Of a stretch of 36,090 nucleotides of DNA, positions 3,000-32,741 are shown one piece after another; position 1 is the stretch's first letter, and every line of letters begins with the position of its first letter. The position numbers were made by a program, and so were the translations under genes. Below the pieces are notes generated by a model that was not told where the DNA came from, did no database searches, and saw only the letters and a list, made by a program, of their open reading frames with translations. The DNA is from Parachlamydiales bacterium (GTDB taxonomy: Bacteria; Chlamydiota; Chlamydiia; Chlamydiales; Parachlamydiaceae), in contig JAGVJP010000081.1 of assembly GCA_020051075.1 (NCBI GenBank), forward strand, positions 1 to 36,090, read 5' to 3'.

Positions 3000-3129
3000 A
3001 CAAGATAAGCAAAAGGGACAAAACAGGATGGGCAAGATCGCTTCGCGGCAGGATAGGCAAGATAGAGCAAAAAAATATACAGGATGGGAAGGATAGAAAA
3101 GATAGTGATGATTAGATGCAGCAATTCTG
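3000..3129 (+). repeat. left arm of long inverted repeat (palindromic element family)
   Basis: This arm is the reverse complement of 3268-3388, with about 4 mismatches over 121 aligned bases plus one 9-nt insertion (around 3097-3105, the AAAAGATAG unit). The 138-bp spacer (3130-3267) is AT-rich and presumably holds the divergent promoters. The 27-nt core at 3079-3105 starts ACAGGATGGG and ends GATAGAAAAGATAG; near-identical cores occur at 25081 and 32706. Confidence 0.9.
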
Positions 3130-3267
3130 GGTCAAAAACATCCCACAGGAATCCTAAGATAAAGAACAAGGAAGGTTGTTAAATTCAATGAATGCGCTTT
3201 GTCCCTGTTATGGATAAAGAATAATTTTATTTTTTATTTCTCATTTTTCGAGAAAATATTTTTCACT

Positions 3268-3388
3268 CAGAATTGCTGCATCTAATCATCACTATCCTTC
3301 CCATCCTGTATATTTTTTTGCTCTATCTTGCCTATCCTGCCGCGAAGCTATCCTGCCTATCCTGTTTTGTCCCTTTTGCCTATCTTGT
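3268..3388 (-). repeat. right arm of long inverted repeat (palindromic element family)
   Basis: Partner of 3000-3129. It begins CAGAATTGCTGCATC and ends TATCTTGT, and lies about 64 nt before the dipZ start. The left arm lies about 57 nt before Met9 of the hydrolase, so the two divergent genes have matching 5' leaders. This copy lacks the 9-nt GATAG-type duplication present in the left arm. Confidence 0.9.
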
Positions 3389-3451
3389 GAAGCTTGCAAT
3401 TTATGAGATGCACCTGTACTAAGAAGGATGGTAGGAAGGGGGAAATCATCC

Positions 3452-5191
3452 ATGTTCATATTAGCCCTATTTGCTTTCATGGCTGGATTGGTGACGGTGT
3501 TATCCCCTTGCATTCTACCAGTTCTTCCTGCGATATTGTCAGCAAGTTCAACCGGGGGAAATCGTCGGCCTCTCGGCGTCATTTGCGGACTCCTAACCAG
3601 TTTTATCTTCTTCACTCTTACGCTGAGTACACTCGTTCATGCATTGGGAATCTCTGCTAACGTTCTGCGCTATGTTGCTATCGCTTTGATTGCTGTGTTT
3701 GGATTGATTCTTTTCTTACCCAAGCTCAGCAATTGGTTTGCTTCAGCAACAGGCTCTTTAGCGGATGTTGGAGCTAAGGTACAGGCGATTTCCCAAGGAC
3801 AAAAACCTGGATTTGTCAGCGGATTTTTTATCGGTTCAGCGTTGGGATTAGTTTGGACGCCTTGTGCAGGACCGATTTTAGCCGCTATCACGACCTTAGT
3901 CGCAACACAGCAGGTCTCATGGCAAATTGTGGTGTTGACGGTTTCCTATAGCCTGGGTGCTGGGGTCCCTCTTCTTCTCATTGCATTCGGAGGCCACCGT
4001 TTAGTGACGTCGTCCCCTTGGCTATCAAGCCATACCGAGTCGATTCGCCGCCTCTTTGGAGCGGTGATGCTCCTCACAGCAGCTGCATTAGCGTTTCAAT
4101 GGGATGTTCTGTTTCAGCAGATGGTGCTTGATTATCTCCCCAGCTTCAATGTGGAAAATCACCCTCTTGTGAAAAAAGAGCTTGAACACTTGCGAGGCCC
4201 TTCCCGCTTTTCGCCTTCTGTGATTCAGTCTAAGGAGAGGAAAACAGGGGATTTGCCAGTCCTTGGCCAGGCTCCACCTATTATCGGAATTTCTGCCTGG
4301 ATCAATACCTCGCCCCTCACTCTGGAGCAATTAAAAGGGAAAGTTGTTTTAGTGGATTTCTGGACTTATAGCTGCATCAACTGTATCCGAACATTCCCTT
4401 ATCTTCGAAAATGGTATGACAAGTATCACGACAGAGGATTGGTGATTATCGGGGTTCACACACCTGAATTTGAATTCGAGAAAGATGAGAACAATGTTCG
4501 CGGTGCTGTGAAACGGTTTGAAATTAAATATCCCGTAGCATTGGATAATCAATACCAAACTTGGCAATCGTTCTCAAACTTCTACTGGCCTGCTCATTAT
4601 CTGATCGATCAAGAAGGAGATGTCAGGGAGATCCATTTTGGAGAAGGAGGGTATCAAGAGACTGAAAATGCCATCCGGTCGCTGTTGAACCTTCCTCCGC
4701 TCCTTGTCAAAGAAGAGAAAGAAGAAGCTGCTCCGATTATGCAAGGAATGACTCCTGAAACTTATTTAGGGTATAAACGGGCTGAGGCCTATGTCGCAGA
4801 AAACCGCATCGTCAAAGATGCCGCCGCTTCTTATGGCTATCATCAGCCTGTTGGTTCGAATGAAGTGGCTTTGCAAGGAATGTGGACAATTGGGGAAGAA
4901 TCTATTCTTTCTCAATCGGATTCATCTCGTTTGACGATTAATTTTAAAGCTGATCGTGTCCACCTGGTTTTGGGAGGGGTAAGTTCAAAGCCGATTCAAG
5001 TTGAGCTCGACGGACATCCGCTCCCGGAGAAATACCGTACTGAAGATATGAATGGGAAGGGGGAGATTATCGTTCATGAGCCTCGAAAATATGATATCGT
5101 CGATTTAAAAGGAGAGGATGGCCGCCACCTCTTAACGATTCAGATCCCTCAAGGTGTTGAGGTCTATGCCTTCACCTTCGGAGCCGAATAA
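3452..5191 (+). CDS. dipZ: DipZ-type membrane thiol-disulfide protein (CcdA domain + thioredoxin-like domain)
   Basis: A cytochrome-c-biogenesis/thiol-redox membrane protein that passes electrons from cytoplasmic thioredoxin to a fused extracytoplasmic thioredoxin-like domain. With the start at 3452 it has 579 residues. Residues 1-225 form a CcdA-like multispanning domain with paired cysteines in SPCILPVLP (Cys20) and TPCAGPI (Cys138). Residues 270-415 form a TlpA-like thioredoxin fold with CINC (Cys308, Cys311) and the cis-Pro region WPAHYLID. Residues 440-579 form a beta-rich C-terminal domain like the CBM-like module of mycobacterial DipZ. An upstream in-frame ATG exists at 3428, but AGGAAGGGGG sits 10 nt before the ATG at 3452, and the hydrophobic first helix starts there. 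The stop abuts the stop of the convergent gene at 5192. The partner substrate is unknown; a role in disulfide handling of envelope proteins is inferred. Confidence 0.9.
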   Translation: MFILALFAFMAGLVTVLSPCILPVLPAILSASSTGGNRRPLGVICGLLTSFIFFTLTLSTLVHALGISANVLRYVAIALIAVFGLILFLPKLSNWFASATGSLADVGAKVQAISQGQKPGFVSGFFIGSALGLVWTPCAGPILAAITTLVATQQVSWQIVVLTVSYSLGAGVPLLLIAFGGHRLVTSSPWLSSHTESIRRLFGAVMLLTAAALAFQWDVLFQQMVLDYLPSFNVENHPLVKKELEHLRGPSRFSPSVIQSKERKTGDLPVLGQAPPIIGISAWINTSPLTLEQLKGKVVLVDFWTYSCINCIRTFPYLRKWYDKYHDRGLVIIGVHTPEFEFEKDENNVRGAVKRFEIKYPVALDNQYQTWQSFSNFYWPAHYLIDQEGDVREIHFGEGGYQETENAIRSLLNLPPLLVKEEKEEAAPIMQGMTPETYLGYKRAEAYVAENRIVKDAAASYGYHQPVGSNEVALQGMWTIGEESILSQSDSSRLTINFKADRVHLVLGGVSSKPIQVELDGHPLPEKYRTEDMNGKGEIIVHEPRKYDIVDLKGEDGRHLLTIQIPQGVEVYAFTFGAE

Positions 5192-6094
5192 TCACACCCC
5201 GCCGTTCTTGACGAGTTTGTCCCAGTATTTGCGCATTTCGCGGTTGAGATATAAACGAATGCTCTTATAGTCGGGCCCTTTTGCGGGATATTCAGTGTCA
5301 ATGAAAGCAAACAACCCCTCTTTTGTTAAGGCGATGTTATCGGGCCGATAGCTTGAACCTTTGGCGCGGCTGATGATCACGTAAAGTTCATCCAAGTGCT
5401 CACGGGTGATTTTAGTGCGCCAAGCTCTGTAATTTTCTTTCTTGGGAGCGAGGTTCATATTCTTAGCGATTAGTATCGCATGATGCCTGACATAACCTTC
5501 TTCTAGTGGAGGCGGAGAGGGGTGTGCTGGGAGAGGGTAAATCCATTTATCGGCGACAACAAAGTGCTTAAAGCCTTTTTTCTTAATCACATTTCTGATC
5601 TTCTCAGCCCCTTGGCAACGTTTGACAAGCCATTCCCAACTTTCTTTACCATATTTTTTCCTGTTATCGTTGTCGAGGTATGCTTTAACGATATGGTGGG
5701 GGAGTAAAGGATGCTTTGCAACATAGACAAATGACCGTTTGCCAATTGAGAACGTTTTAAACCCTGCTTCAGTAAACGTCTGTTCGTTTGCTGTCGCCCG
5801 TTTTTCGAGAAAAATAGCATCGAGTTTGCCTTTCATCGGATGCTTTTGTGGAATCAGATAAGGGCGTAACTGCTTTTTGATTTTCGAAGGAATGTAAGGA
5901 TTGCCATCTAAATTGTTGTTCTCCTTCGATCGAACAATCGGGTTTTCAAAGGCTGTAGAAGCAAACTCTTGATCGTAAACTTCTTCTAACCAGGCATCCA
6001 AATCATTCGTATCAAAGTATTTGGAGTCAGCAACTGACGCATGTAGAGTTAAAAGCGAGCTAAACAAGAGGATAATATAAATCATTTTTTTCAT
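5192..6094 (-). CDS. exported protein with kinase-like motifs, function unknown
   Basis: A 300-residue protein with a clear N-terminal signal peptide (MKKMIYIILLFSSLLTLHAS, cleavage near 20-23). No family was recognised with certainty. Motif order suggests a degenerate protein-kinase-like fold: IVKAYL (Lys137) could be the subdomain II lysine. SSYRPDNIAL (247-256) resembles a catalytic loop with Asp252/Asn253, and FAFIDTEYP (Asp266, 262-270) occupies the place of DFG. The HRD His/Arg are not conserved. The mature N-terminal region (25-105) is acidic then basic with no motif. The stop codon immediately follows the dipZ stop on the other strand. It could be an effector or a periplasmic protein; the signal peptide points to Sec export. 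The kinase assignment is inference only. Confidence 0.75.
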   Translation of the reverse strand: MKKMIYIILLFSSLLTLHASVADSKYFDTNDLDAWLEEVYDQEFASTAFENPIVRSKENNNLDGNPYIPSKIKKQLRPYLIPQKHPMKGKLDAIFLEKRATANEQTFTEAGFKTFSIGKRSFVYVAKHPLLPHHIVKAYLDNDNRKKYGKESWEWLVKRCQGAEKIRNVIKKKGFKHFVVADKWIYPLPAHPSPPPLEEGYVRHHAILIAKNMNLAPKKENYRAWRTKITREHLDELYVIISRAKGSSYRPDNIALTKEGLFAFIDTEYPAKGPDYKSIRLYLNREMRKYWDKLVKNGGV

Positions 6095-6162
6095 ATTAAA
6101 GATGAGTGAAATTTTAGATATAATAGAATTTACACAAGTGGCTATTTAATTTAAACTGATAT

Positions 6163-6975
6163 TTAATGTTTGTCGCTTGACGCAAGATAATTGGTCAGAA
6201 TCTCATGGAGAGTTTCGTTAGACGCAAGAACTGTCGATGGGACTGACAAAGAAACCGGAAAGGAGTGGTTTTGCGACACTTTTCCACCAGCTTCTTCAAC
6301 TAAGATCTGTCCCGCTGCAAGATCCCATGGAAAGATATTGCACATCCAGAAAGCATCAGCTTTGCCGGCCGCCACATAAGCTAAACTGAGTGCCGCAGAG
6401 CCTATATTTCTAAAGATCGTTCCTGTTTTGCTCAGATGTAGAATTTTTTGGACGTTTAATAGAAGTGCCTCATCCATCACATAAGGCAATCCTGCTGCAA
6501 TGAGACAATGCTCAAGATTGTCTATCTGACTGACATGAATTTTTTTGTCGTTCAAATAGGCTCCTCGACCTCTTTCTGCGACAAATAGCTCGTCCGTCAT
6601 CGGTTGGTAGATGATTCCGCAAATGATCTGTCCATGCTGATAAGCGGCGATGCTGATGGCGAAGAGGGGAAGATGGTGAGCAAAGTTTGTTGTCCCATCA
6701 AGCGGGTCGATGATCCATAAGACATTCTCGTCTTGAGTAAAACCGGTGGATAGTCCACTCTCTTCTGCGAGGAAGTGATCATTCGGAAAGACTCCTTGAA
6801 TTGTTTTGATGATCAATGCTTCTGAAAGGTGATCATATTCTGTGACGAAATTCTGATGACCAGGTTTTGCAGTGATCTCAAAGTCTGAACCAAATCCTTT
6901 GCGCAAGATTGCACCTGCTTGTAGAGCCGCTTGAGTCGCTGTGAGGGTGTAGTTTGAGAAAGTAGATTTGTCCAT
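6163..6975 (-). CDS. suhB: inositol monophosphatase family protein (SuhB-like)
   Basis: A Mg2+-dependent phosphatase of the IMPase/SuhB family, 270 residues, the usual length. The metal-binding signature is intact: AEESG (Glu71/Glu72), WIIDPLDGTTNF (Asp90, Asp93, 88-98) and the C-terminal FPWDLAAGQILVEEAGG (Asp218, 216-231). It hydrolyses inositol-1-phosphate or related sugar phosphates; family members also include CysQ-type and NADP phosphatases, and SuhB acts on rRNA antitermination in enterobacteria, so the physiological substrate is open. AGGA lies before the ATG. It is divergent from the 54-residue acidic gene at 7143. The nearby PTP-like phytase (7481-8410) makes an inositol-phosphate role plausible but unproven. 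Confidence 0.9.
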   Translation of the reverse strand: MDKSTFSNYTLTATQAALQAGAILRKGFGSDFEITAKPGHQNFVTEYDHLSEALIIKTIQGVFPNDHFLAEESGLSTGFTQDENVLWIIDPLDGTTNFAHHLPLFAISIAAYQHGQIICGIIYQPMTDELFVAERGRGAYLNDKKIHVSQIDNLEHCLIAAGLPYVMDEALLLNVQKILHLSKTGTIFRNIGSAALSLAYVAAGKADAFWMCNIFPWDLAAGQILVEEAGGKVSQNHSFPVSLSVPSTVLASNETLHEILTNYLASSDKH

Positions 6976-7142
6976 TGCAATTCCTTTATTGTATGAATAA
7001 TCGTTTTATTTTATTGTTTTTTCTGGAAAGGGATAGCCATGATTTTTTCGGTAAGAGTTACCGTTGAAACCCTGTCACGCTAATCCGCTATCAAATATAA
7101 ATTGTAGCTAGTTTTTATTAAGCTGTAAATGGTGAGGTATCA

Positions 7143-7307
7143 ATGTTTAATAACCAGTTTTCTGACGAAGAGGATTTCGACGCGGAAGAAGAATTAGATG
7201 ATTTCGGTGACGAAGACGAAGATGAAGATTTAGATGAGGATGATGAAGACTTTGAAGACGATGAAGACTTTGAAGACGATGATGACTTTGAAGAAGAAGA
7301 AGACTAA
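7143..7307 (+). CDS. 54-residue highly acidic protein
   Basis: A short ORF that codes MFNNQFSDEEDFDAEEEL and continues almost wholly as Asp, Glu and Phe. About 70% of its residues are acidic. The tail contains imperfect repeats of DEDFEDD, with Phe every 6-7 residues (37, 43, 49). GTGAGG lies 6-11 nt before the ATG, a good Shine-Dalgarno spacing. There is no TM segment or signal peptide. The function is unknown. Very acidic small proteins can shield basic DNA- or RNA-binding proteins, and in Chlamydiae histone-like Hc1/Hc2 would be a possible basic partner, but this is speculation. A palindrome (7336-7403) follows 28 nt after the stop and may end its transcript. Confidence 0.65.
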   Translation: MFNNQFSDEEDFDAEEELDDFGDEDEDEDLDEDDEDFEDDEDFEDDDDFEEEED

Positions 7308-7335
7308 GTCTCTCTAAAAACTTTGTGCTAAGCAA

Positions 7336-7403
7336 AAAACAGGATAGGCAGGATCGCTTCGCCTGCCTATCCTGCCGCGAAGCGATCCTGCCTATCCTGT
7401 TTT
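7336..7403. repeat. palindrome with perfect 26-bp arms; bidirectional terminator and repeat-family member
   Basis: The left arm 7336-7361 and right arm 7378-7403 are perfect reverse complements (26 bp), with a 16-nt loop. It sits between the convergent acidic gene (stop 7307) and phytase gene (stop 7481). On the minus strand the stem runs directly into six Ts, so it would work as an intrinsic terminator for the phytase transcript. Read on the minus strand, 7403-7362 matches the 3020-3061 portion of the long inverted repeat almost base for base, so the same element family is used here at gene 3' ends. Confidence 0.85.
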
Positions 7404-7480
7404 GCCCCTTTATGCTTATCCTTGTTCCCTTTGCGACTCTTGTGCTCCTTTGCGTTAAAAAAGGGGGATGTTTGCAGCAT

Positions 7481-8410
7481 TTACATATTGCGGAGAACAT
7501 AGAGTGACCAGGTCGTTTGAAACTGGTCGTTATTGGTCCGGCAATAATCATAGAATTCTTTCAAAAACTGCAAGCGGTCTATCTGGTAGCTCGCGGACCA
7601 TCTGCTATTCGCTAATTCCATATTCCTGCCACCAATATACCATTGCCGTTTCATGATGTCGTCAAAGGTCACCTTTTTGGCATTTTTCATCATATCATAC
7701 ATCGTCATAAGAGTCGTTGTTCTTCCTATGCCTGCAGAACAATGAAAATGCAGCCAAGTATCGTGCGGGAGTTGTTGCACAAATTCGATAAAGCGATCGA
7801 CAAGGTGGTAAGCAGGGGTAATATGATCAGTTAGAGGAATGCGAAAGTAGTCGATGTCATGTTCTTGAACTAATCGTTCTTCGGTAGAGGCGTGGTGTAT
7901 TGTAAAGGGGATGCTGACGGTTTCATAATCTTCATGCTCTTGAATCCCTTTATTGATGATTTTATTTAAAACAACGTTCTTTTTTTGGAGCGACTGCTCG
8001 AGCAAGCTCTTTTCCTCTTGTTTGATTTTGCCTAATCTTTTCCCAACATTGGCCCAATCGCGCATCCCATACCAGGACACAGCTGTTCCATTAAAGAAAC
8101 CATGACTTTCCTGGCGTAAATCGACGACGATGACGCGATGGTTTCGTGGAAGAGAGTTAATGATTTTCTTCAGTGAATTTTTGGAAAATTGACCGCTTCC
8201 AGAAATTTTAAGAGAATCCAGTCCTTCCCGTGTGGGGAGATTAGGTCCTGTGATCTTATAGGGATCTTGAACAGTCCTAAAATTGCGTGGAAGGACATAA
8301 TCATCTTTCATGTTGATGACTAAAATAGGTTCCATCTGGGCACTCACCGTTGACATCCAGAAGGATGCTATGATAAATAATATTTGTAGAAAGTTTTTAA
8401 ACATCTTCAT
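7481..8410 (-). CDS. secreted PTP-like phytase / inositol polyphosphate phosphatase
   Basis: A cysteine-phosphatase-fold enzyme of the PTP-like phytase group (type member Selenomonas PhyA). Seen, numbering from the ATG at 8410 (309 residues): a hydrophobic signal peptide to about residue 24; REGLDSLKISGSGQFS (62-76); VDLRQESHGFFNG (96-108) followed by AVSWYGMRDWAN, a combination characteristic of this group; general-acid loop PLTDHITP (Asp195); and the P-loop HCSAGIGRT (Cys224, Arg230). It is expected to remove phosphates stepwise from myo-inositol polyphosphates. The first in-frame start is a TTG at 8425; ATGs at 8410 and 8404 are more likely, the latter with GGGATGAAG before it. It follows prfC in the same direction by about 22 nt and may be co-transcribed. 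Bacterial relatives include host-acting effectors, so action on host InsP6 is a reasonable guess. Confidence 0.9.
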   Translation of the reverse strand: MKMFKNFLQILFIIASFWMSTVSAQMEPILVINMKDDYVLPRNFRTVQDPYKITGPNLPTREGLDSLKISGSGQFSKNSLKKIINSLPRNHRVIVVDLRQESHGFFNGTAVSWYGMRDWANVGKRLGKIKQEEKSLLEQSLQKKNVVLNKIINKGIQEHEDYETVSIPFTIHHASTEERLVQEHDIDYFRIPLTDHITPAYHLVDRFIEFVQQLPHDTWLHFHCSAGIGRTTTLMTMYDMMKNAKKVTFDDIMKRQWYIGGRNMELANSRWSASYQIDRLQFLKEFYDYCRTNNDQFQTTWSLYVLRNM

Positions 8411-8432
8411 CCCATTTTTTATCAATATTTTT

Positions 8433-10037
8433 TTAAGATAACATGTCTACAAGCTGATGCTCGGGGTTTTGCTTCATCGCATATTGCTTATCCCAAACTT
8501 CAGTGAACAGGACAATAGGTCTCTCAAAACGATCCTGGACTATTAATGAGGTTGTTGTCTTTTTAAATGTCTCAAGCTCTCCCAATAACCATCCACTGCA
8601 ACTGTAAGGGAGTGGCGTTAAAATTGTCTCTACTCCATATTCATCCTTTAAGCGGTATTGCATCACTTCGAATTGGAGCTGTCCAACGGCAGCAAAAATC
8701 GCTTCGCCGCTCGAATCATAGGATTTTAATAGCTGAATCGCTCCCTCATCGGATAACTGAAAGATTCCTTTATCAAAAGATTTCCGTTTGCCGACATCTT
8801 TGGGTTGCAAACGTGCAAAAATTTCAGGTTGAAACTGGGGTAGCGGCTTAAAGTTAAAACCGCCTGTCATTGATATCGTATCGCCGATGGCAAAGACGCC
8901 GGGGTTGATGACGCCGATGATATCTCCTGCATAGCCGACGTCGAGGGTCGTTCTTTCTCCTGCCACCATACCATGAGGACGCGATAGCCTGACCTCTTTC
9001 CCTAATCGGTGATGTTTAACCACGAGGTCACGTTCAAAGCGGCCTGAGCATATGCGTAGGAATGCCATGCTGTCGCGATGCCGTTTGTCCATATTGGCCT
9101 GTAGTTTGAAGACATAAGCGCTGAATGGGGTGTCGATAGGGTCGATCAGGATTTCTTCTCCTTTCAGCGTATCTGCTAGGCGTGCGTGAGGGGAGGGGGC
9201 AAATTCGATGAAGGCATCAAAGAAAGGTTCAATCCCATAGTTGGTCAAAGCTGATCCAAAAAAAACTGGAGTGATGTCACCGGTAAGGAATTTCTCAACA
9301 GAGAAAGGATTTCCTGCAGTTTCGAGGAGTTCGAGTTCTTGTAAGAGCTCTGTATAGAGAGTCATTCCGATCCGCTCTTTGGCTTCATTGCTATGTAGAG
9401 GGAATCTTTCGATGCCGGCTTTGGTCGCTCCGCCGGCAGAAGTTTTACTAAAGAACAAACACATGTTTGATAAGCGGTCCACAACACCAATAAATTCTTT
9501 GCCTGTCCCAATTGGCCAATTGATCGCTGAAGAGTGAATTTGGAGAACCTCTTCAACTTCGTTCATAAGGTCGAGGGGATCTCTGCCAGGCATATCCATC
9601 TTATTGATGAACGTCAGCACGGGGATTTTGCGGAGGCGGCACACTTCGAATAGCTTTCGTGTTTGCTTCTCAACGCCTTTTCCGGAATCGATGACCATAA
9701 TCGCGGAGTCAGCAGCTGTCAGGGTGCGATAGGTGTCTTCAGAGAAGTCTTCATGGCCAGGGGTGTCAAGGACGTTGACGAGAAAATCTTTGTAAGGGAA
9801 CTGCATGGCAGAGGCGGTAATGGAGATTCCACGCTCTTGCTCCATTGACATCCAGTCTGAAGCGGCAGCTTTTCTGCCTTTCCGTCCTCTAACCATGCCA
9901 GCAGTATGGAGCATGCCTGAGTATAGGAGTAATTTTTCAGTTAAAGTGGTTTTACCTGCATCAGGGTGGCTGATGATCGCAAATGTTCGCCTCTTATCGC
10001 ACTCGTCTTTAAGGGTCAAACGGTCTTGCATGTTCAT
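8433..10037 (-). CDS. prfC: peptide chain release factor 3
   Basis: RF3, the translational GTPase that recycles RF1/RF2 from the ribosome after peptide release. It has 534 residues, the usual length. G-domain motifs: SHPDAGKTTL (23-32), effector/switch I region QERGISITAS (67-76), DTPGHEDF (91-98) and NKMD (145-148). A domain-II beta-barrel and the RF3-specific C-terminal domain follow (YDSSGEAIFAAVGQLQFEV region). The prokaryotic-RF3 switch I wording QERGISIT distinguishes it from EF-G. An ATG two codons downstream (10031) is an alternative start. It is probably the first gene of a two-gene unit with the phytase. Upstream (10038-10239) is AT-rich with TATAAT-like sequence on the minus strand near 10071 but no clear -35. 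Confidence 0.95.
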   Translation of the reverse strand: MNMQDRLTLKDECDKRRTFAIISHPDAGKTTLTEKLLLYSGMLHTAGMVRGRKGRKAAASDWMSMEQERGISITASAMQFPYKDFLVNVLDTPGHEDFSEDTYRTLTAADSAIMVIDSGKGVEKQTRKLFEVCRLRKIPVLTFINKMDMPGRDPLDLMNEVEEVLQIHSSAINWPIGTGKEFIGVVDRLSNMCLFFSKTSAGGATKAGIERFPLHSNEAKERIGMTLYTELLQELELLETAGNPFSVEKFLTGDITPVFFGSALTNYGIEPFFDAFIEFAPSPHARLADTLKGEEILIDPIDTPFSAYVFKLQANMDKRHRDSMAFLRICSGRFERDLVVKHHRLGKEVRLSRPHGMVAGERTTLDVGYAGDIIGVINPGVFAIGDTISMTGGFNFKPLPQFQPEIFARLQPKDVGKRKSFDKGIFQLSDEGAIQLLKSYDSSGEAIFAAVGQLQFEVMQYRLKDEYGVETILTPLPYSCSGWLLGELETFKKTTTSLIVQDRFERPIVLFTEVWDKQYAMKQNPEHQLVDMLS

Positions 10038-10075
10038 TTTTGTGGACTCTCTTATGATCTAAAAAAAACATTATA

Positions 10076-10093
10076 ATTTTACAACAATATAAT
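10076..10093 (+). repeat. 18-bp sequence repeated in inverted orientation at 11342-11359
   Basis: ATTTTACAACAATATAAT here is the exact reverse complement of 11342-11359. The two copies flank the coiled-coil gene (10240-11283). No transposase lies between them, so they may be shared upstream control elements rather than element ends. Confidence 0.6.
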
Positions 10094-11283: not shown

Positions 11284-11341
11284 AAATCACCTCTTTCTTT
11301 ATAGCAAACAAGCAACTATTTTCATTATAATTAAAATATTA

Positions 11342-18375: not shown

Positions 18376-18432
18376 GCTCTCTATTGTTTTGGGTCTTGAC
18401 CCCACGTTTTGGTCGCGGAGCTCCCTCCGCGC
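18376..18432 (+). repeat. 57-bp dispersed repeat, copy A
   Basis: Starts GCTCTCTATTGTTTTGGGTC and matches 35880-35936 at 52 of 57 positions. Its 3' part contains a hairpin, CGCGGAG-CTCC-CTCCGCG. It lies directly next to the terminator of the neighbouring hypothetical gene. Confidence 0.85.
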
Positions 18433-23588: not shown

Positions 23589-23751
23589 TAAAAACCATGA
23601 TCAGTCTCAGCTAACGTAATAGCTAGCGCAAAGAAGAAGAACATCTCCCCTATGGCTATAAATTCTCCTCTTTGCGCCTTTGTGTCTTCTTTGCTTCTTT
23701 GCGTTAAAAAAAAGAGAGGATGAGGATGTGAATAGTTACCGCGTCTCCAAA

Positions 23752-25050: not shown

Positions 25051-25110
25051 ACCACTATCCTTCCCATTCTGTCAAATTTTACAGGATGGGCAAGATAGGA
25101 AAGATAGTGT
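25051..25110 (+). repeat. palindromic element in the 5' leader of the M29 peptidase
   Basis: ACCACTATCCTTCCCATTCTGT (25051-25072, written here as a left arm) pairs with the right arm starting ACAGGATGGG (25081). The right arm contains the extra 9-nt GATAG-type unit, as in the other copies. The 27-nt core at 25081-25107 differs from the 3079 and 32706 cores at only three positions. Confidence 0.85.
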
Positions 25111-25149
25111 TGATTAAGATGAGAAGGTCTTAGTCTGAGCGTATGGCAC

Positions 25150-25794
25150 TCAAGGGATAAGGATATCTTTGCCTTTAGTTTTGATAATCATTTTGCCTGG
25201 TTTAGCTCCATTGGTAAGGAGAATACGGCTGAACCCTCCGACAGCTTCGGTAAGCTCACCTTCTGTTGAAGTAAAGAAGTTAGGGAGAGGTTGATTATTA
25301 TTTTCTAATACAGACAGGATATTGGTTCTTCCCCATATTGTGATCGCACCAATGAACTCCCCATTCTCTGGATTATACAGACTTGTTGATCCATTTGGTG
25401 GAGCAAGAGCCGTGCCCAATGTTACAAATCCACTGACTTGCCTTCCATGGATCCAAACAATATTGGGATGGGTTGGAAATACTCTTACAGCATCAATGAT
25501 GCCTACAGCCTCAAAATTTGTCCCTGTCACAGGACTGAAAGGAACAGCTTTCGTCGAACTGATAAAAACTGAGCCTTTGATAATACGGTTGCCTTTAGCT
25601 TTGAGATTAATTTTGGTAACGTTTTCGCCAAATCCATTGCTGAGAGGATTAGGGTAGAAATAAGTTCCTCCCCCCTTAACAATAACAGATTGTTTATGGT
25701 GTAGATCTGAAGAATCGTGAGACCCAGCGATTAATCCGGTTGTAGTAACAGTCATGAGTGCTAATGTAAACAGATAATTTATAAATCTATTCAT
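25150..25794 (-). CDS. secreted beta-rich protein, function unknown
   Basis: A 214-residue protein from the ATG at 25794. The frame extends to 25863, but AAAAGGTAG precedes 25794, and a signal peptide begins exactly there (MNRFINYLFTLALMTVTTTGLIAG, cleavage near 23). The mature part is rich in Gly, Thr, Val and Ile with short alternating hydrophobic strands (IVKGGGTYFYPNP, RIIKGSVFISSTK, FEAVGIIDAVRVFP, GEFIGAITIWGR, EAVGGFSRILLTNG), so a small beta-barrel or jelly-roll is likely. Only superficial likeness to dirigent/allene-oxide-cyclase barrels is seen and not claimed. There are no cysteines in the mature part. It is likely extracytoplasmic, possibly surface-associated. It lies between smr and the peptidase on the same strand. 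Confidence 0.68.
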   Translation of the reverse strand: MNRFINYLFTLALMTVTTTGLIAGSHDSSDLHHKQSVIVKGGGTYFYPNPLSNGFGENVTKINLKAKGNRIIKGSVFISSTKAVPFSPVTGTNFEAVGIIDAVRVFPTHPNIVWIHGRQVSGFVTLGTALAPPNGSTSLYNPENGEFIGAITIWGRTNILSVLENNNQPLPNFFTSTEGELTEAVGGFSRILLTNGAKPGKMIIKTKGKDILIP

Positions 25795-25879
25795 AGAGAC
25801 TACCTTTTCTTGAGGGTTATGGTGTTCACCATTGGTATATATGGGATCGTCACTTTGAATCAATTATTTTTTCAAAGAT

Positions 25880-26134
25880 CTAAAATTTGAAGTGGACGAA
25901 GATGCGTCCAAAATTTTTGCTGTCCTTTTCGATGCGATGAACCAATGCCTTGATATTTTTCTGTTCAAGGAAGCGGAGAACCTTTTTCTTCAACTGCCCG
26001 CTTCCCTTTCCTGGAATGATCTCCACAAGGGTAATTTTTTTTTCGACAGCTTCGTTGATGATTCTAGTCAATTCGTTGTCGATGAGCAATCCTCGATTGA
26101 AAATCTCATGCAAGTCCAGTTTCAGTTTAGCCAT
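25880..26134 (-). CDS. Smr-domain protein (small MutS-related)
   Basis: An 84-residue stand-alone Smr domain from the ATG at 26134; a GTG two codons earlier (26140) is the alternative. Diagnostic features are the N-terminal LDLHE (6-10), where DLH is the Smr box, and PGKGSGQLKKKVLRFL (41-56), the H/GKGxG loop. Smr domains bind or nick branched DNA, or cleave mRNA at collided ribosomes as in the eukaryotic NONU-1/Cue2 group; the substrate of short bacterial versions is uncertain. The start overlaps the aguA stop by 8 bp, so it is probably translated from the same mRNA. Confidence 0.85.
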   Translation of the reverse strand: MAKLKLDLHEIFNRGLLIDNELTRIINEAVEKKITLVEIIPGKGSGQLKKKVLRFLEQKNIKALVHRIEKDSKNFGRIFVHFKF

Positions 26135-27182
26135 GATCACCCACAGGCTCTTGTTGGCTGAGGCAGTGGAAGCTCCCTAGGCCCCAAATGATGTCTCTGG
26201 AGTCGAGGCCGACCACGTCTCTGTCTTTGAAACATGCCGCAAGCTGCTCGAGAGCGATCTCATCCTGCGGGTCGTTGAAAATAGGCACAATCACTGCGGC
26301 ATTGGAGATGTAGAAGTTGGCATAACTGCAGGGGAGCATCTGTCCTTCCATGAAGAATGGAGCTGGCATCGGCAGGTCGATGACGGTGAGGGGAGTGCCG
26401 TTGAGCAGTTTCATCTGAGTTAAGGCTTTTCGATTTCGCTGCAAAACTGCATAGTCCGGGTGGGATTTGTCCTCAGCGACGACGGTGACAACGGTGTCCG
26501 TGCTGACAAAGCGGGTCAAGTCGTCGATATGGCCGTCGGTGTCGTCCCCCTCAATTCCATCTTCGAGCCAGAGAATCTGTTCGACGCCATAGAAGTCGAT
26601 GAGATACTGCTCGATTTGACGTTGGCTGAGGGAAGGGTTTCGGTTTGGATTCAACAGGCAAGCCTTCGTTGTCAGAACCGTTCCAGCGCCGTTGAATTCG
26701 ACAGACCCTCCTTCCATGATGATCCCTGGGTGGAAACAGGGCAGCCCTAAAGATTGGGCGGTCTTGGTTGGGATGACATCGTCGAGGTCATGAGGAGGGT
26801 ATTTTCCTCCCCACGCATTGTAGTCCCAATCGACGATGACCTTTCTATCTATCTGTGTGTTGCGGACAACAAATGCAGGACCGTGGTCTCTGCACCAAGC
26901 ATCATTGGTCGGGTGGAGAAAGAACTCCACCTGATGGAGGTCGACTCCAGCTGCCTTCAGGCGCTGCTCTGCGCCTTGCTGCATTTCTGGGCTGCAGACA
27001 TTAATCCGAACTTTTTCCCCCTTGACGAGGTGGCCAATAAACTGGCAGTAGATGTCGAAGATCGCTTCAATTTTTCCAGGCCAGGTGTTCTCGTTGTGAG
27101 GCCAGCTGAGCCAAGTGGCTTCATGCCTCTCCCATTCAGCAGGAAAATGATAGCCTAGCTGTTTTGGCGTGGCCACCATCAT
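26127..27182 (-). CDS. aguA: agmatine deiminase
   Basis: Converts agmatine to N-carbamoylputrescine and ammonia; a member of the guanidino-modifying (PAD-like) superfamily. It has 351 residues. Seen: substrate-binding WLSWPHNENTWPG (24-36), DAWCRDHGPAFV (94-105), MEGGSVEFNG (156-165) with Glu157, DGHIDDLTRFV with His218, and the catalytic Cys340 in GLGSFHCLSQQEP. The full catalytic set (Glu, His, Cys) is present. The 5' end overlaps aguB by 4 bp (ATGA), and smr overlaps the 3' end. With aguB it makes putrescine from agmatine. No arginine decarboxylase is seen in the window, so agmatine must come from a gene elsewhere or from the host. Confidence 0.95.
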   Translation of the reverse strand: MMVATPKQLGYHFPAEWERHEATWLSWPHNENTWPGKIEAIFDIYCQFIGHLVKGEKVRINVCSPEMQQGAEQRLKAAGVDLHQVEFFLHPTNDAWCRDHGPAFVVRNTQIDRKVIVDWDYNAWGGKYPPHDLDDVIPTKTAQSLGLPCFHPGIIMEGGSVEFNGAGTVLTTKACLLNPNRNPSLSQRQIEQYLIDFYGVEQILWLEDGIEGDDTDGHIDDLTRFVSTDTVVTVVAEDKSHPDYAVLQRNRKALTQMKLLNGTPLTVIDLPMPAPFFMEGQMLPCSYANFYISNAAVIVPIFNDPQDEIALEQLAACFKDRDVVGLDSRDIIWGLGSFHCLSQQEPVGDHG

Positions 27183-28063
27183 TTCACCTCATCATCGAGG
27201 AATCGGGATGTGATCGGCTGGTAGGTCTCGATGCGGCGGTCGCGCAGAAAGGGCCAGTGGGTGCGATAATAGTCCGATTGAGCGAGGTCGACATCGACGA
27301 CAGCAACATCTTCGGCGGCATAGGGCGCCTGATAGCTGATGGCGCCGAATGGGTTCGCCACAAAAGATCCACCCCAAAACTTCAGTTCATCTTCGATGCC
27401 AGTCCGATTGACGGCGATGACATGGACGCCATTGGCGATGGCATGACTTCGTTGGATCGTCTGCCAGGCCTCATATTGGAGGCGGTTTGTTTCTTCGTCT
27501 TGACTTAATGCCCACCCGATGGCAGTCGGATAGAATAGCATCTGTGCGCCCATCAAAGAGGTGATCCGCGCAGCTTCCGGGTACCATTGATCCCAGCAAA
27601 TGAGCACGCCGATTTTAGCATAGCGGGTCTGAAACACTTTGTAGCCGAGATCGCCGGGGGTGAAGTAGAACTTCTCATAGAAGCCAGGATCATCGGGGAT
27701 GTGCATCTTTCGATATTTTCCTAGATATTCGCCGCCAGCATCGATAACAGCTGTGGTGTTGTGGTAGAGTCCTTCTGCACGCTTTTCAAACAAGGAGGCG
27801 ACGATGACGATGTCATAGGCTGCAGCAAGCTGGGAGAGTCGGTCTGTAGTGGGCCCTGGCACCTGTTCTGCAAGGGCGAAGTTGTCATAGTTTTCGGTGT
27901 TGCAGAAATAGAGAGAGCGAAAAAGCTCCGGCAAACAGACAATCTGGGCCCCTTTGTCGGCGGCTTCTTTGATTTTCTCTATTGCAGAAGTGATGTTTTT
28001 TTCGGGTTGTTGTTCGCATCTCGGCTGTATGATACCCACTTTTATCGTTGACTTTTGTTTCAT
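27179..28063 (-). CDS. aguB: N-carbamoylputrescine amidohydrolase
   Basis: A carbon-nitrogen hydrolase of the nitrilase superfamily, 294 residues. It hydrolyses N-carbamoylputrescine to putrescine, CO2 and ammonia. The Glu-Lys-Cys triad is intact: Glu46 in CLPELF, Lys119 in KYRKMHIPD, Cys156 in LICWDQWYPEAAR. FYEKFYFTPGD and the WPFLRDRRIETYQPI ending are those of the AguB/NLP1 group. The gene is read before aguA with a 4-bp overlap, the order typical of this two-step pathway. Its own start follows glyA (stop 28083) by about 20 nt, so glyA-aguB-aguA-smr may be one transcript. Confidence 0.95.
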   Translation of the reverse strand: MKQKSTIKVGIIQPRCEQQPEKNITSAIEKIKEAADKGAQIVCLPELFRSLYFCNTENYDNFALAEQVPGPTTDRLSQLAAAYDIVIVASLFEKRAEGLYHNTTAVIDAGGEYLGKYRKMHIPDDPGFYEKFYFTPGDLGYKVFQTRYAKIGVLICWDQWYPEAARITSLMGAQMLFYPTAIGWALSQDEETNRLQYEAWQTIQRSHAIANGVHVIAVNRTGIEDELKFWGGSFVANPFGAISYQAPYAAEDVAVVDVDLAQSDYYRTHWPFLRDRRIETYQPITSRFLDDEVK

Positions 28064-28082
28064 GAGGCACGCTCCATTATTT

Positions 28083-29558
28083 CTATATTTCTATTTCAGG
28101 ATAAAGAGGAAACTGCTGTAGAAGGTTGGTCACCCGAGCTTGAGCTTCTTCTAAAATCGCCGGGTCAACGACGGAGTTGGCTTTGCTTGGCTGGCCTGTT
28201 TTTTCAACTGTTGTTGGCTTTGTATGCGACAGGATTGAGACGATGATGTCGGCAATCTCTTCCATCTCCACTTTGCCCATCCCTAGCGTTGTCAAAGCAG
28301 GCGTCCCTAGTCTGATGCCTGAGGTATACCATGGACCTTGAACGTCAAACGGGATCGCATTTCGATTTGCTGTGATCAATGCCGACCTCAACGCTGTTTC
28401 TGCATGCCGCCCTGTCAATCCAAACTTGGAGACATCAACAATCATCAAGTGGTTTTCAGTTCCCCCTGTGACAAGTCTCACCCCCTTAGAGGTGAATCTT
28501 TCCGCCAGGGCTTGGGCATTGTTTACAATGTGGTTTGCATACGTTTTAAAGTCAGGTTGATTTGCTTCTTGAAAGGCGATGGCTTTGGCTGCCATGACAT
28601 GGGGCAGTGGGCCGCCCAACACCATGGGACATCCTTTATTCACCGACTCAGCAAAGTCTTTCTTGCAGAGAACGATCCCTCCTCTAGGACCTCTCAACGT
28701 CTTATGCGTTGTTGAAGAGACGATATCAGCGTACGGGATCGGGTTATATTCTCCAGTGAATACCCCGCCAGCGACTAATCCAGCAAAGTGGGCCATGTCG
28801 ACGAAGAGGACGGCTCCAACAGAATCGGCAATTTCACGCATTTTAGCGAAGTTGAGCCGGCGCGGATGCGCGGAATACCCGGCGAGGAGGATGGCCGGCT
28901 TCTCTGCCATCACCTGTTTAGCGAGTGCATCATAGTCTAGCAATTCCGTTTTTCTGTCGACGTCATAAAGAACTGATTTCATGATTTTTGAGGAGATATT
29001 ATGGCGATAGCCATGGGTGAGATGGCCGCCTGAATTCAACGACATCCCCATCAATTTTTGGTTGACGAGGAGCTGACGAATGGATTCATATTCTTCTGGA
29101 GTCAGTTCGTCGATGGATTTTTTCCCCAGTTTCTCCAAAGCAGGTGTTTGCACTCGATGAAGAAGAATGGCCCATATCGCCACTAAATTGGCATCGGCGC
29201 CAGAGTGAGGCTGCACGTAAGCGTGGTCGCAGCCGAATAACTTGATCAGCTCTTTCTGCGCCAGCTCTTCGACAGAGTCGACGTTGTTGCAGCCTGCGTA
29301 AAAACGGTGGTGTGGATAGCCTTCGGCGTATTTATCTGTTAATAGGTTTCCCATGGATAACTGAACGGCTAACGATGAGAAATTCTCTGAGGCAATCAAC
29401 TTGAGGTGGGAACGCTCATCTTTAAGTTCTTGTATGATCGCTTGTCCAACTTCGGGGTAGACGCTGTTGATGTGATCTAAAGCTGCCAGATAGGCTATCG
29501 CAGCTGTACGAGACTGCTCAACCGGGTGTTTAGCGAGATATTTCTTTAATAAAGACAT
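28083..29558 (-). CDS. glyA: serine hydroxymethyltransferase (chlamydial long form)
   Basis: A PLP enzyme that interconverts serine and glycine, loading tetrahydrofolate with a one-carbon unit. It has 491 residues, about 70 more than the common bacterial form. Much of the excess is an insertion at about 134-170 (HRVQTPALEKLGKKSIDELT...), as known from Chlamydia GlyA. Conserved parts are LIASENF (54-60), DKYAEGYPHHRFYAGC (75-90), HSGADANLVAIWA (118-130), and the PLP lysine Lys286 in SSTTHKTLRGPRGG. In Chlamydia the enzyme also racemises alanine for peptidoglycan; that side activity may apply here but cannot be read from sequence. A perfect GGAGG lies 5 nt before the ATG. Confidence 0.97.
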   Translation of the reverse strand: MSLLKKYLAKHPVEQSRTAAIAYLAALDHINSVYPEVGQAIIQELKDERSHLKLIASENFSSLAVQLSMGNLLTDKYAEGYPHHRFYAGCNNVDSVEELAQKELIKLFGCDHAYVQPHSGADANLVAIWAILLHRVQTPALEKLGKKSIDELTPEEYESIRQLLVNQKLMGMSLNSGGHLTHGYRHNISSKIMKSVLYDVDRKTELLDYDALAKQVMAEKPAILLAGYSAHPRRLNFAKMREIADSVGAVLFVDMAHFAGLVAGGVFTGEYNPIPYADIVSSTTHKTLRGPRGGIVLCKKDFAESVNKGCPMVLGGPLPHVMAAKAIAFQEANQPDFKTYANHIVNNAQALAERFTSKGVRLVTGGTENHLMIVDVSKFGLTGRHAETALRSALITANRNAIPFDVQGPWYTSGIRLGTPALTTLGMGKVEMEEIADIIVSILSHTKPTTVEKTGQPSKANSVVDPAILEEAQARVTNLLQQFPLYPEIEI

Positions 29559-29579
29559 AGAACCTCCTTTATGTATTTA

Positions 29580-29686
29580 AAACACAGAGGACACAGAGGG
29601 CACGGAGGAAGTAATTTCAATCATTACCTGCGTTCATTATTGTTCACCATGTGTCTAATCTCTGTGTTCTCTGTGCCTCTGTGTTT
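29580..29686. repeat. inverted repeat of CACAGAG words between valS and glyA
   Basis: The left arm 29580-29602 (AAACACAGAGGACACAGAGG...) and right arm 29661-29686 (...CTGTGCCTCTGTGTTT) are imperfect reverse complements. An inner GTAAT/ATTAC hairpin sits at 29610-29627. The region of about 150 bp has no gene. It may be the 3' structure of the valS mRNA or the glyA leader. Confidence 0.7.
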
Positions 29687-29707
29687 CTATTTGTGAGAAG
29701 CTGCTTG

Positions 29708-32578
29708 TTATGTTTCTAAAGACGCTAGTTTTTGCGTAATCTCGCGCAGTTCTTTGTTTCCCTGTTCGAGTTGCTCCCTCAGCTTTGCAATGAGCTGCTG
29801 TGGAGCCTTGTTGACGAACTCATCATTTGCCAGCTGAGTCTGGAGCTTCTCCTGAGCCGCTGTTAATTTTTCTTTCTCTTTATTGAGCCGCTTTAATTCT
29901 TCATTGAATAGTTCTTCAGGGAGCGGCAGCATGATTTTAAGTCCGCGGCAGACCCCTGTCGAGGCGAATCCTAAATCCGGTTCTTGATTTTGAATAGAGA
30001 TTTTGTTCGCTTTCACTAAGGCTGAGATCATCAGGAAGTTATTTTGGACAATTTGCCAATCGAGGTCATGAGCAGAGCCAACGATATAGACATCGGTCGC
30101 TGCTCCAGGCGGAAGCTTCATCTCGCCGCGGATATTACGGATGGTGTAGATCACCTGTTCCATCAAAGCAAACATCGCATCGACTTCAGGGTTGATGTCC
30201 CTTTCTCTCACAGGCTGCGGATAGGGGGCAGCGATGCAAGCGGAGCTCTGGAGAGCCGCTATGCATTCCTTTGTGTAGGGGTCGCAATCGTCATGGATTG
30301 AAATTGAGGCATCGACACCGTTCAACTGCTCTTTCAGGATGTGGAAAATCTCTTCAGTGATGAAGGGCACGATGGGGTGCATCAGCCGTATGGACTGACA
30401 CAAGACGATGACAAGAAGTTTCTGTTTGTTAATTCTTTCCTGTGGAGTTCCGACTTTTCCAAAAAGCACCGGTTTTGAGAATTCGACATAGAAGGCGCAG
30501 AATTCCTTCCAGAAAAACTCATAGGCTTCCATCGCTGCTTGATCGAATTCATATTTTTCAAGATGGCCGTTGACGCTTTTGACAGTCCGATTCAACGTCG
30601 ATAGAATCCACCGGTCTTCGAGGGTCAATAGCTGTTCGTTCAACCCCTGAGCAAGGATGTGGCCGTGCAGCGCAGTTTTGTTTTCAACGTCGTTGCCTTC
30701 CAAGTTCTGTAAAACAAAGCGGGCGCCATTCCAAACTTTATTGGCAAAGTTTTTAAACTCTTCAAAACGGCGCCTGTCAAGATCTATCTGCCTCGCATGG
30801 GTTGTGCTCGCGCAAAGCGCCATCCGTACAGCGTCGGTGCCATATTGGTCGATCATTTCGATCGGGTCGATGACGTTGCCTTTCGTCTTAGACATTTTCT
30901 CCCATTTGGAGAGCACCTCTTTAGGCTGAGGTTTGCCCAAGTCGTAAGCGAGCCGTTCTTCTTCAGAGACATAGGCGACGCCGCCGTCAGGTTTGTTCCG
31001 CCAATACGATTTGCCATAGATCAAGCCGTTCATAAAGGTTTCAGGAAAGGGGACCTCTCCCATCACATAGTTCCCGAGGGCGAGCATCCGGGCGATCCAG
31101 AAGAATAAGATGTCATGTCCGGTGACAAGGACTGCATTGGGATAGAATTTATCTAAGACAGCATTTTGTTCTGGCCATCCAAGAGTGGAAAATGGCCATA
31201 GGGCTGATGAAAACCACGTGTCGAGAACATCGGGATCTTGAATCCAGTCTTCCGGAGCGGCTTTGACTTCTTCAGGTTCATCAGGGCCTTCATGGCAGAT
31301 CAGCTGGGAGGGATCTGTTCGGTGATACCAAATGGGGATCCGATGTCCCCACCACAGCTGTCTGCTGATGCACCAGTCGCGCAGGTTGTCGATCCAGTGG
31401 AAGTAGGTGGACTCCCAATAAGAAGGGATGAGCTTAGTTTGTCCTTCAACAACAAACTTCTTGAGCTCCCCGGCAAAACCGCTCATCTTGACAAACCACT
31501 GTTTGGAAAGATAGGGCTCTATCGTCGCTTTGGAGCGGTAGGAGACTCCAACGCGGTGGGTGTGGCGGTCGATTTTCTCTAGCCATCCTTCTTTTTCTAA
31601 CTGTTTGACCACGGCTTCCCTGGCTTCAGCCATCGTCAGCCCTTCAAAAGGGCCGCCGTTGGCGTTGATCCGTCCATCTGGCGTCATGATGTTGATGAGG
31701 GGGAGTCCGTGGGCAAGTCCCATCTGATTGTCATTAGGATCATGTGCTGGAGTGATCTTGACAGCGCCCGTTCCAAAGGAGGGATCCACTTGCGGATCTT
31801 CGATGATGGGGATGACGCGATGAGTGATCGGGAGTTTAATCTGCTTGCCGACGAGATGCGAATAACGGAGATCTCCTGGCGAAACCGCGACGGCGGTGTC
31901 TCCGAGCATGGTCTCTGGACGTGTCGTTGAGATGCTGATGAAGCCCGATCCATCGGCCAATGGGTAGCGGATGGTCCACATATAAGAATCCCGTTCTTCA
32001 TATTCGACTTCGTCATCGGCTAAAGCTGTCTGTGTGACGGGGTCCCAGTTGACGAGGTAGTCCCCGCGGTAGATGAGACCTTGGTCAAAGAGTTTTTTAA
32101 ATGTTGTTCTGACGGCTTGGTTATTCTTTTCATCCATCGTGAAGCGGAGGCGGGACCAGTCGCAGGAACATCCGAGCATCTTGAGTTGGTTGATAATCCG
32201 CGATTCGCTTTTTTCTTTCCATTCCCAGACGTGGTTAAGAAACTCTTCTCTGGAGTAGTCCTTTCTTTTCTTCCCTTCGGTGTTGATGAGATGCCGTTCG
32301 ACAACAGTCTGAGTGGCGATGCCGGCATGGTCTGTTCCTGGCACCCAGAGAACTTCAAAGCCTAACATCCGTTTCCATCTGATTAAGATGTCTTGCAGGG
32401 TGTTGACAAGGGCATGTCCCATGTGGAGGATGCCGGTGACATTCGGAGGGGGCATGACGATGCAATAAGGAGGTTTATCGGAGTTGACGTCAGCGATGAA
32501 ATAGCGGAGGCCATCCCAAAATTGGTACCATTTGGCATCGGTGTTCTTAGGGTCGTAGCTTTTGGGGAGATCGGCCAT
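29708..32578 (-). CDS. valS: valyl-tRNA synthetase
   Basis: A class I aminoacyl-tRNA synthetase for valine, 956 residues, of full bacterial length. The HIGH-equivalent PPPNVTGILHMGHAL (43-57) and KMSKTKGNVIDP (561-572) are intact. The editing CP1 domain is present (STTRPETMLGDTAV, 217-230; THRVGVSYRSKATIEP, 340-354). The C-terminal coiled-coil arm characteristic of ValRS occupies the last ~70 residues (LNKEKEKLTAAQEKLQTQLAN...). Upstream, the palindromic element at 32671-32741 lies about 95 nt before the start codon. It is divergent from phr. Confidence 0.97.
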   Translation of the reverse strand: MADLPKSYDPKNTDAKWYQFWDGLRYFIADVNSDKPPYCIVMPPPNVTGILHMGHALVNTLQDILIRWKRMLGFEVLWVPGTDHAGIATQTVVERHLINTEGKKRKDYSREEFLNHVWEWKEKSESRIINQLKMLGCSCDWSRLRFTMDEKNNQAVRTTFKKLFDQGLIYRGDYLVNWDPVTQTALADDEVEYEERDSYMWTIRYPLADGSGFISISTTRPETMLGDTAVAVSPGDLRYSHLVGKQIKLPITHRVIPIIEDPQVDPSFGTGAVKITPAHDPNDNQMGLAHGLPLINIMTPDGRINANGGPFEGLTMAEAREAVVKQLEKEGWLEKIDRHTHRVGVSYRSKATIEPYLSKQWFVKMSGFAGELKKFVVEGQTKLIPSYWESTYFHWIDNLRDWCISRQLWWGHRIPIWYHRTDPSQLICHEGPDEPEEVKAAPEDWIQDPDVLDTWFSSALWPFSTLGWPEQNAVLDKFYPNAVLVTGHDILFFWIARMLALGNYVMGEVPFPETFMNGLIYGKSYWRNKPDGGVAYVSEEERLAYDLGKPQPKEVLSKWEKMSKTKGNVIDPIEMIDQYGTDAVRMALCASTTHARQIDLDRRRFEEFKNFANKVWNGARFVLQNLEGNDVENKTALHGHILAQGLNEQLLTLEDRWILSTLNRTVKSVNGHLEKYEFDQAAMEAYEFFWKEFCAFYVEFSKPVLFGKVGTPQERINKQKLLVIVLCQSIRLMHPIVPFITEEIFHILKEQLNGVDASISIHDDCDPYTKECIAALQSSACIAAPYPQPVRERDINPEVDAMFALMEQVIYTIRNIRGEMKLPPGAATDVYIVGSAHDLDWQIVQNNFLMISALVKANKISIQNQEPDLGFASTGVCRGLKIMLPLPEELFNEELKRLNKEKEKLTAAQEKLQTQLANDEFVNKAPQQLIAKLREQLEQGNKELREITQKLASLET

Positions 32579-32670
32579 GAATTTATACTCTCTGAAATAA
32601 GGATATATAATGGTGCGAGGGTAACATAGATGACATTTTCAATAAAGGATATACATGCCTCTCGTTGAAT

Positions 32671-32741
32671 TATCCTGCCCTATCCCCCTCCATCCTGCTA
32701 ATTTTACAGGATGGGGAGGATAGTAAAGATAGGGCAGGATC
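32671..32741 (+). repeat. palindromic element in the valS-phr divergent region
   Basis: The left arm TATCCTGCCCTATCC... (32671-32697) pairs with 32707-32741. The right arm has an extra 9-nt TAAAGATAG unit, exactly as in the copies at 3000 and 25081. The 27-nt core is 32706-32732. Read towards valS, the hairpin is CCATCCTG, a TAAAATTAG loop, then CAGGATGG. Confidence 0.85.

Follow-up and report, generated by a model that had tools for sequence, protein, structure and literature searches.

A large family of dispersed palindromes built on a 9-nt unit, most likely mobile DNA, in a Parachlamydiales genome

The DNA analysed was a 36,090-nt stretch from a Parachlamydiales bacterium (GenBank assembly GCA_020051075.1, contig JAGVJP010000081.1, positions 1 to 36,090, forward strand; hereafter the window), which forms contig C108 of a 2.94-Mb genome in 133 contigs. 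Three 27-nt palindromic cores had been noticed in it ahead of genes for a hydrolase, an M29 peptidase and ValS, together with a shorter copy before dipZ. A preliminary description had read them as structured leaders or protein-binding sites controlling a regulon, with a selfish element resembling the repetitive extragenic palindromic (REP) sequences as the alternative. We conclude that the cores are pieces of a dispersed palindromic family built from a 9-nt common unit, NAGGATNGG, as read from the sequence, and that this family has probably multiplied as small non-autonomous mobile DNA and probably does not consist of regulatory leaders. The family comprises two forms, termed S and L. It is real and large, no name was found for it, and it is most likely mobile DNA whose two forms differ in their placement relative to genes.

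The cores were present as described (ACAGGATGGGAAGGATAGAAAAGATAG at 3079-3105, ACAGGATGGGCAAGATAGGAAAGATAG at 25081-25107 and ACAGGATGGGGAGGATAGTAAAGATAG at 32706-32732), with their mutual differences confined to three positions. The word CAGGATNGG was counted 11 times in the window compared to 1.27 expected, and none of 100 shuffles gave a count as high. Across the genome, the 18-nt pattern ACAGGATNGGNARGATNG produced 316 exact matches and its reversed control none, while exact S palindromes of the type CCNATCCTGN{7,12}CAGGATNGG were found 53 times, again with a control of 0. A scan of the window against Rfam returned 0 matches at gathering score.

The S form is a palindrome of ~60 bp with an asymmetric loop, the best copies reading CTATCTTTCCTATCCTTCCCATCCTG-TCAATTTTTA-CAGGATGGGAAGGATAGGAAAGATAG. 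The loop was nearly invariant, with A29, A30, T32 and T34 at 90% or more and T33 without exception. Predicted RNA folds of −22.6 and −40.5 kcal/mol (z −4.6 and −6.4) for the copies at 25081 and 32706 bore out the earlier claim of a hairpin. What had been taken for a one-sided 9-nt GATAG duplication is really the 9-nt period that runs through the element (CAGGATGGG AAGGATAGG AAAGATAG). Strict S matches numbered 37 (control 1) in a sample of 699 kb, or 24% of the genome, drawn from contigs with matches; this sample also served for the placement counts below. One of the 37 (loop CCGTTG) was discarded as a chance match, the alignment A1 additionally omits one copy that crosses the boundary of a fetched stretch, and a few atypical loops were oriented by a fixed script rule. 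With model R1, at least 140 strand-matches were obtained in the genome (141 of 3288 candidates scored, many places being counted on both strands), together with 78 in genome G024 and 17 in G005; a match was present in 8 of the 38 genomes of the family. The copy at 25053-25109 scored E 2.5e-14 with R1, a model that itself contains that copy. Some S copies lie in arrays with a 90-bp period, with up to four units among those inspected. Compensatory pairing in the stem, which the leader reading would predict, was not seen above background (covariation 0.154 compared to 0.169 in shuffles), as is expected for recent copies of one sequence.

When S copies were extended outwards, inverted ends of the sequence GGCTATTTTCATAACTTCGTCAA were reached, with 150-430 bp between paired ends. 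The genome holds 30-32 such ends, and by eye the similarity extends further in some copies. Two complete elements were flanked by identical 8-bp sequences, TCCATTTA on contig C1 and GATTTTCG on C63. A third 8-mer, GAATTTAT, was common to the element end that closes C92 and the one that opens C97, which suggests one element split by the assembly. Comparison of all 15 left with all 14 right flanks gave exactly these three shared 8-mers. Three modules of the transposon other than S lay within 260 nt of 13/36 S copies compared to 25/2000 random windows; with inclusion of a fourth module, one overlapping the S repeat, the counts were 16/36 for S copies and 0/48 for L elements without S nearby. The S-bearing element thus has terminal inverted repeats and, in two of the six listed end pairs plus the pair divided over two contigs, an 8-bp target-site duplication. 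Inside its inverted ends S is a miniature inverted-repeat transposable element (MITE) in structure, and in style it is nearest to BrickBuilt of Porphyromonas gingivalis. In the part of PMC4596501 that describes it, BrickBuilt is likewise intergenic, multi-copy, bounded by inverted repeats and a holder of tandem repeats. Set against that account, the S element has its own features: an internal 90-bp unit whose palindrome, of 9-nt period, is found outside the transposon as well, the 8-bp target duplication, and no parent insertion sequence that was found. From the 8-bp flanks, S would have been spread by a transposase acting in trans.

The L form is an inverted pair of ~35-nt arms, ACAGGATAGGCAGGATCGC-TTC-GCGGCAGGAT, each arm carrying a mini-hairpin. 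The sample contained 57 L elements, 29 of them with both arms at the strict threshold. Among arms with up to three mismatches, 69 were in inverted doublets (partner with up to five mismatches) and 26 were single; single, nested and composite copies all occur, and the middles varied from copy to copy among the G012 copies shown. A comparison of divergence between doublet and single arms was set aside as confounded, since at five mismatches 137 arm matches were obtained compared to 36 in the control. Between genomes the stem of the mini-hairpin changes on both sides, with CGC, CGGC, CGCC, CGAC, CGCT and CGGCT opposite their complements. For 38 distinct arms taken from fetched loci with a limit per genome, 88.4% of cells were paired and covariation was 0.268 compared to 0.089 in shuffles (0/500 as high) and 0.109 for the best slid version. 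In this genome, similarity between arms was also higher within pairs than across pairs (45 pairs, including some that belong to one element), both over the outer 14 nt (0.517 compared to 0.426, 0/5000) and over the inner 40 nt (9/5000). The same held in G026 with 10 pairs (outer 0/5000, inner 1/5000).

The two forms differed in their placement. Gene calls came from a simple hexamer scorer and numbered 531, covering 85% of the sample, so that the contexts are approximate. The 57 L elements lay in 23 convergent, 20 same-strand and eight divergent gaps, with five at contig edges and one genic; an earlier count on part of the sample (16 convergent, 16 tandem, two divergent, 22 edge) is superseded, the full count being less extreme. 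L was thus enriched in convergent gaps (23/51 compared to 8.6 expected, p 2.5e-6) and depleted in divergent ones (8/51 compared to 16.1, p 0.015). In same-strand gaps, 15/20 copies were closer to the upstream stop (p 0.04). An L element was found within 150 nt of 59 gene 3′ ends and in every case within 98 nt, a distance that has no random-placement control. At least four A residues stood directly outside 64/106 L arms, giving a T-run on the exiting strand, compared to 52/509 when every CAGGAT word of one strand, including those in arms, was counted. Stable hairpins with a T-run at gene 3′ ends, the combination sought for a terminator, were therefore found for L. Its enrichment just after stops and in convergent gaps, with a T-run frequently following the hairpin on either strand, makes it likely that L works, or is tolerated, as a two-way 3′-end hairpin; the hairpins are predicted to end transcripts from both sides. 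For S without L the 25 contexts were nine same-strand, seven divergent, four convergent, four edge and one genic, which equals length-weighted chance (convergent 4 compared to 3.4 and divergent 7 compared to 6.3, n=20).

These counts bear directly on the regulon, in which the palindrome would serve as a structured 5′ leader or a regulator-binding site held in fixed orientation before its target genes. The four core-like sequences of the window do point alike relative to the downstream gene, as had been stated, and a nearly invariant asymmetric loop is what such a site might show. The four are not independent 5′ copies, however. The 3079 core and the copy before dipZ belong to the left and right arms of a single inverted repeat, which lies between divergent genes, so that their agreement in orientation is automatic, and the 32706 copy, also between divergent genes, has both orientations at once. 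In the wider sample no orientation was preferred: the 36 S copies, of which 30 lay in gaps, yielded 34 element-gene pairs, 17 in the same and 17 in the opposite orientation relative to the gene downstream (a divergent gap giving one of each by construction), and same-strand gaps alone gave six and six. Nor did S favour the leader position, as same-strand copies were closer to the upstream stop in seven cases and to the downstream start in five. Together with chance placement, a stem without covariation above shuffles, and the presence of arrays and transposon ends, these results make the regulon very improbable. The REP-like alternative of the preliminary description fared better, being supported by the 316 pattern matches, the inverted doublets, the covarying hairpin within the arm, the 3′-end placement of L, and the location of S inside a miniature transposon bounded by terminal inverted repeats, some with 8-bp target-site duplications.

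Two further explanations concern L alone. The elements could be ordinary intrinsic terminators that were selected and converged on one sequence without mobility; the 3′-end placement, the T-runs, the covarying mini-hairpin and the differing middles of the G012 copies are all in keeping with this. Convergence would account neither for one 18-nt arm recurring at dozens of unrelated places (the sample has 57 elements), nor for genome-specific arm versions (stems CGC, CGGC, CGCC and CGAC), nor for the existence of single, nested and composite copies. Furthermore, the predictor called terminators at few other genes (25/272), so that such structures are not the general style of the host, and convergence of this kind is considered unlikely. 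We regard as similarly doubtful that the arms are kept alike by palindrome-templated repair through strand switching, L having neither function nor transposition. The within-pair arm match exceeds the between-pair match in this genome and in G026, and a palindrome with matching 58-nt arms is present at C32:7469, both as such repair would produce. By itself, though, it explains neither the dispersal of copies nor the 3′-end bias, and the covariation of the mini-hairpin lies within one arm.

In form, L is close to the REPINs or BIMEs, doublets of REPs associated with RAYT tyrosine transposases. The features in common, as set out in PMC3116915, are short conserved arms arranged as inverted doublets around a middle that varies, compensatory changes, and clustering in tandem with flanks. 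For L these correspond to the 69 arms in doublets with variable middles, and to the changes in the mini-hairpin and the arm matching in this genome and G026 (weak in G012); the S stem lacks compensatory changes. The many copies and the extragenic location mainly between convergent and same-strand genes are also shared (PMC3116915 and PMC3733652), and REPs as described in PMC3733652 have the 3′ placement as well. The latter paper also describes GTAG- and CGTC-tagged REPs of the PVC superphylum, which like the present elements are small palindromes mostly downstream of genes. No GTAG or CGTC tag is present in the L arm consensus AAATAACAGGATAGGCAGGATCGCTnnnGCGGCAGGAT, and L differs from REPINs in that its arms contain direct 9-nt repeats. 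The genome search gave one RAYT (C99:875-1420; NF047646, 88.6 bits with a cut-off of 80) and one IS200-type Y1 gene; this RAYT and its homologues, over 18 loci, were not flanked by the repeat. As both the flank and the tag fail, L was not filed as a REPIN. It looks like one, perhaps behaves like one, and would on this analogy have spread in a REPIN-like way.

RAYT homologues were found in 13/232 genomes of the phylum, the present one included. Two or more repeat matches were present in 7/13 of these and in 13/219 others (p 1.5e-5, from hand-typed lists); inside the family of this genome the figures were 4/7 and 8/31 (p 0.18). Y1 transposases in general showed the same trend (11/25 compared to 1/24, by hand count), so that the association with RAYT is not specific and is given little weight. 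Linkage by proximity was considered and rejected: single words stood near Y1 genes at loci L102 and L105, the former belonging to a CAGGCCTGACCCCCAATCCTG-type repeat, and at locus L108 the proximity of a Y1 remnant to a diverged S copy seemed coincidental. As a separate observation, locus L102 (G012, contig C7) has a broken Y1 transposase between repeats of GGGGTCAGGCCTG, a unit of another kind within this family of genomes. A broader proposal, in which one 9-nt word circulates as the common currency of mobile repeats in chlamydiae, with the lone RAYT copying L in trans into gene 3′ ends as portable two-way terminators and a DDE-type transposon carrying the word as S, appears improbable as a whole.

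A number of results weigh against reading the family as mobile DNA with L as a two-way 3′-end hairpin. For the transposon, the 8-bp duplication was seen in two of the six within-contig end pairs listed and was absent from four, one of which is nested. None of the four modules was near 20/36 S copies, including both S palindromes of the window, whose history is accordingly inferred from the family. No transposase with a GGCTATTTTCATAACTTCGTCAA end was found: the places in genome G141 have beside them a protein kinase and three open reading frames without a Pfam match, and G141 was the one relative whose gene content was inspected, four others having near matches to the end. For L, neither a sharp end nor a duplication could be defined, and no family arm was present within 0.9 kb before or 2.6 kb after the RAYT gene or in any of the 18 loci of the RAYT and its homologues, 2/18 of which held isolated CAGGATNGG words. 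Two less sensitive measures of the mini-hairpin were ordinary (two pairs with changes on both sides, reached by 107/500 shuffles; five further pair types, 131/500), and arm matching in G012 was weak (outer 249/5000, inner 1948/5000, 16 pairs). The gap copies of G012 were three convergent, 12 same-strand and two divergent (n=17). The corresponding convergent, same-strand and divergent counts were 4, 6 and 1 in G026 (n=11), 1, 1 and 2 in G023 (n=4), and 3, 2 and 2 in G024 (n=7); gene calls in these relatives were made on short stretches, and the remaining clusters lay at edges or in genes. Finally, the comparison with ordinary terminators gave an uninformative 0/59 where 1.2 were expected, by the predictor with 25/272 calls at other genes, and a scan with a terminator consensus, which counts loops of 3-8 only, did not have the hairpin at 7336-7403 in its output.

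The distribution of the repeat was patchy. At least one ACAGGATNGGNARGATNG match was present in 34/232 chlamydial genomes, including this one, and two or more in 20; single matches may be due to chance. The next-highest counts were 46 in G012, 24 in G026 and 19 in G024. The GGCTATTTTCATAACTTCGTCAA end was found within three mismatches in 6/232 genomes, again including this one, and among relatives was exact in G141 only. In G141, which belongs to another chlamydial family, the last 40 nt of the element end on contig C56 (loci L329 and L332) equal those of the C31 copy of the present genome and form a mirror-image pair on one contig; this may reflect transfer, contamination or an assembly fold-back. 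Plasmids searched with one transposon copy gave no match. Spread beyond the chlamydiae was considered: among the matches listed, 23/59 loci were non-chlamydial by title, and 22 of these looked isolated by eye, coding status not being considered, so that general spread was rejected. Three loci titled Verrucomicrobia SZAS-7 were counted with the chlamydiae, two of them matching places in G083 of the phylum. The remaining non-chlamydial locus (L193, Opitutaceae, JAHFTG010000140.1) holds a ACAGGATTA-type hairpin with ACAGGATTAACAGGAT arms, a verrucomicrobial occurrence which is a hint of the AGGAT word beyond the chlamydiae. In open-licence full texts, no description was found of comparable chlamydial palindromes that are REP- or MITE-like and high in copy number. 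The main text of PMC3733652 contains neither Protochlamydia nor Waddlia, and 'chlamydia' only in the superphylum name and a reference; a 2026 paper on a hydra-associated chlamydia (PMC13229535) describes ordinary insertion sequences, with 0 occurrences of 'palindrom' in the available portion.

The members of the family in the window are listed below. The composite repeat, whose outer arms are of the L form, sits between the divergent hydrolase (−) and DipZ-like (+) genes, as named from the Pfam matches of the flanking genes. The hairpin at 7336-7403 is a further member that had been overlooked. It lies between two gene 3′ ends, those of an acidic open reading frame ending at 7307 (+) and of a PTP-like phytase (−), with 32 and 81 nt between its strict arms and the flanking genes, and its predicted RNA folds were −54.1 kcal/mol on the plus and −58.1 kcal/mol on the minus strand.

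Members of the palindromic family in the window (positions from the first nucleotide; a dot marks features without a strand)
Feature	Position	Strand	Basis or context
Composite L+S inverted repeat, ~390 bp	arms 2999-3103 and 3285-3389	.	105-nt arms, 93% complementary, 181 nt apart (inverted repeat I1)
27-nt core, S-type half within the left arm of the 2999-3389 repeat	3079-3105	+	read in the sequence
Right-arm counterpart of the core at 3079 (shorter copy before dipZ)	3285-3309	−	inverted repeats I1, I2
L-type hairpin with perfect arms	7336-7362 and 7377-7403 (27 nt each, 100% complementary)	.	inverted repeat I7
S-type palindrome (core 25081-25107)	25053-25109	.	same-strand gap, 56 nt past one stop and 72 nt ahead of the M29 peptidase start
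S-type palindrome (core 32706-32732)	32672-32740	.	between divergent valS (−) and photolyase (+)

Other repeats were also observed. A second dispersed repeat of 57 nt, 91% identical between its copies at 18376-18432 and 35880-35936 (D2), is unlike the CAGGATNGG family. A CTTTGCG...GTTAAAAAA repeat is present at 7428-7462 and 23677-23711, its first copy 24 nt from the L hairpin at 7336-7403, and by eye CACAGAG-type repeats adjoin some L elements elsewhere as well; the two kinds of repeat may share gene 3′ ends. The palindrome at C32:7469 (genome G000, locus L062) has a 9-nt loop between 58-nt arms whose identity is 1.00. Perfect arms of 58 nt are long for a stable bacterial sequence.

When a few copies in one window agree in orientation, palindromy can be the cause. 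If the family is as described, a likely intracellular lineage carries a heavy, lineage-specific load of palindromes. These repeats would offer a strain marker and would help to explain assembly breaks, C92 and C97 appearing to end inside one element, and the formation of 3′ ends in this genome would become testable.

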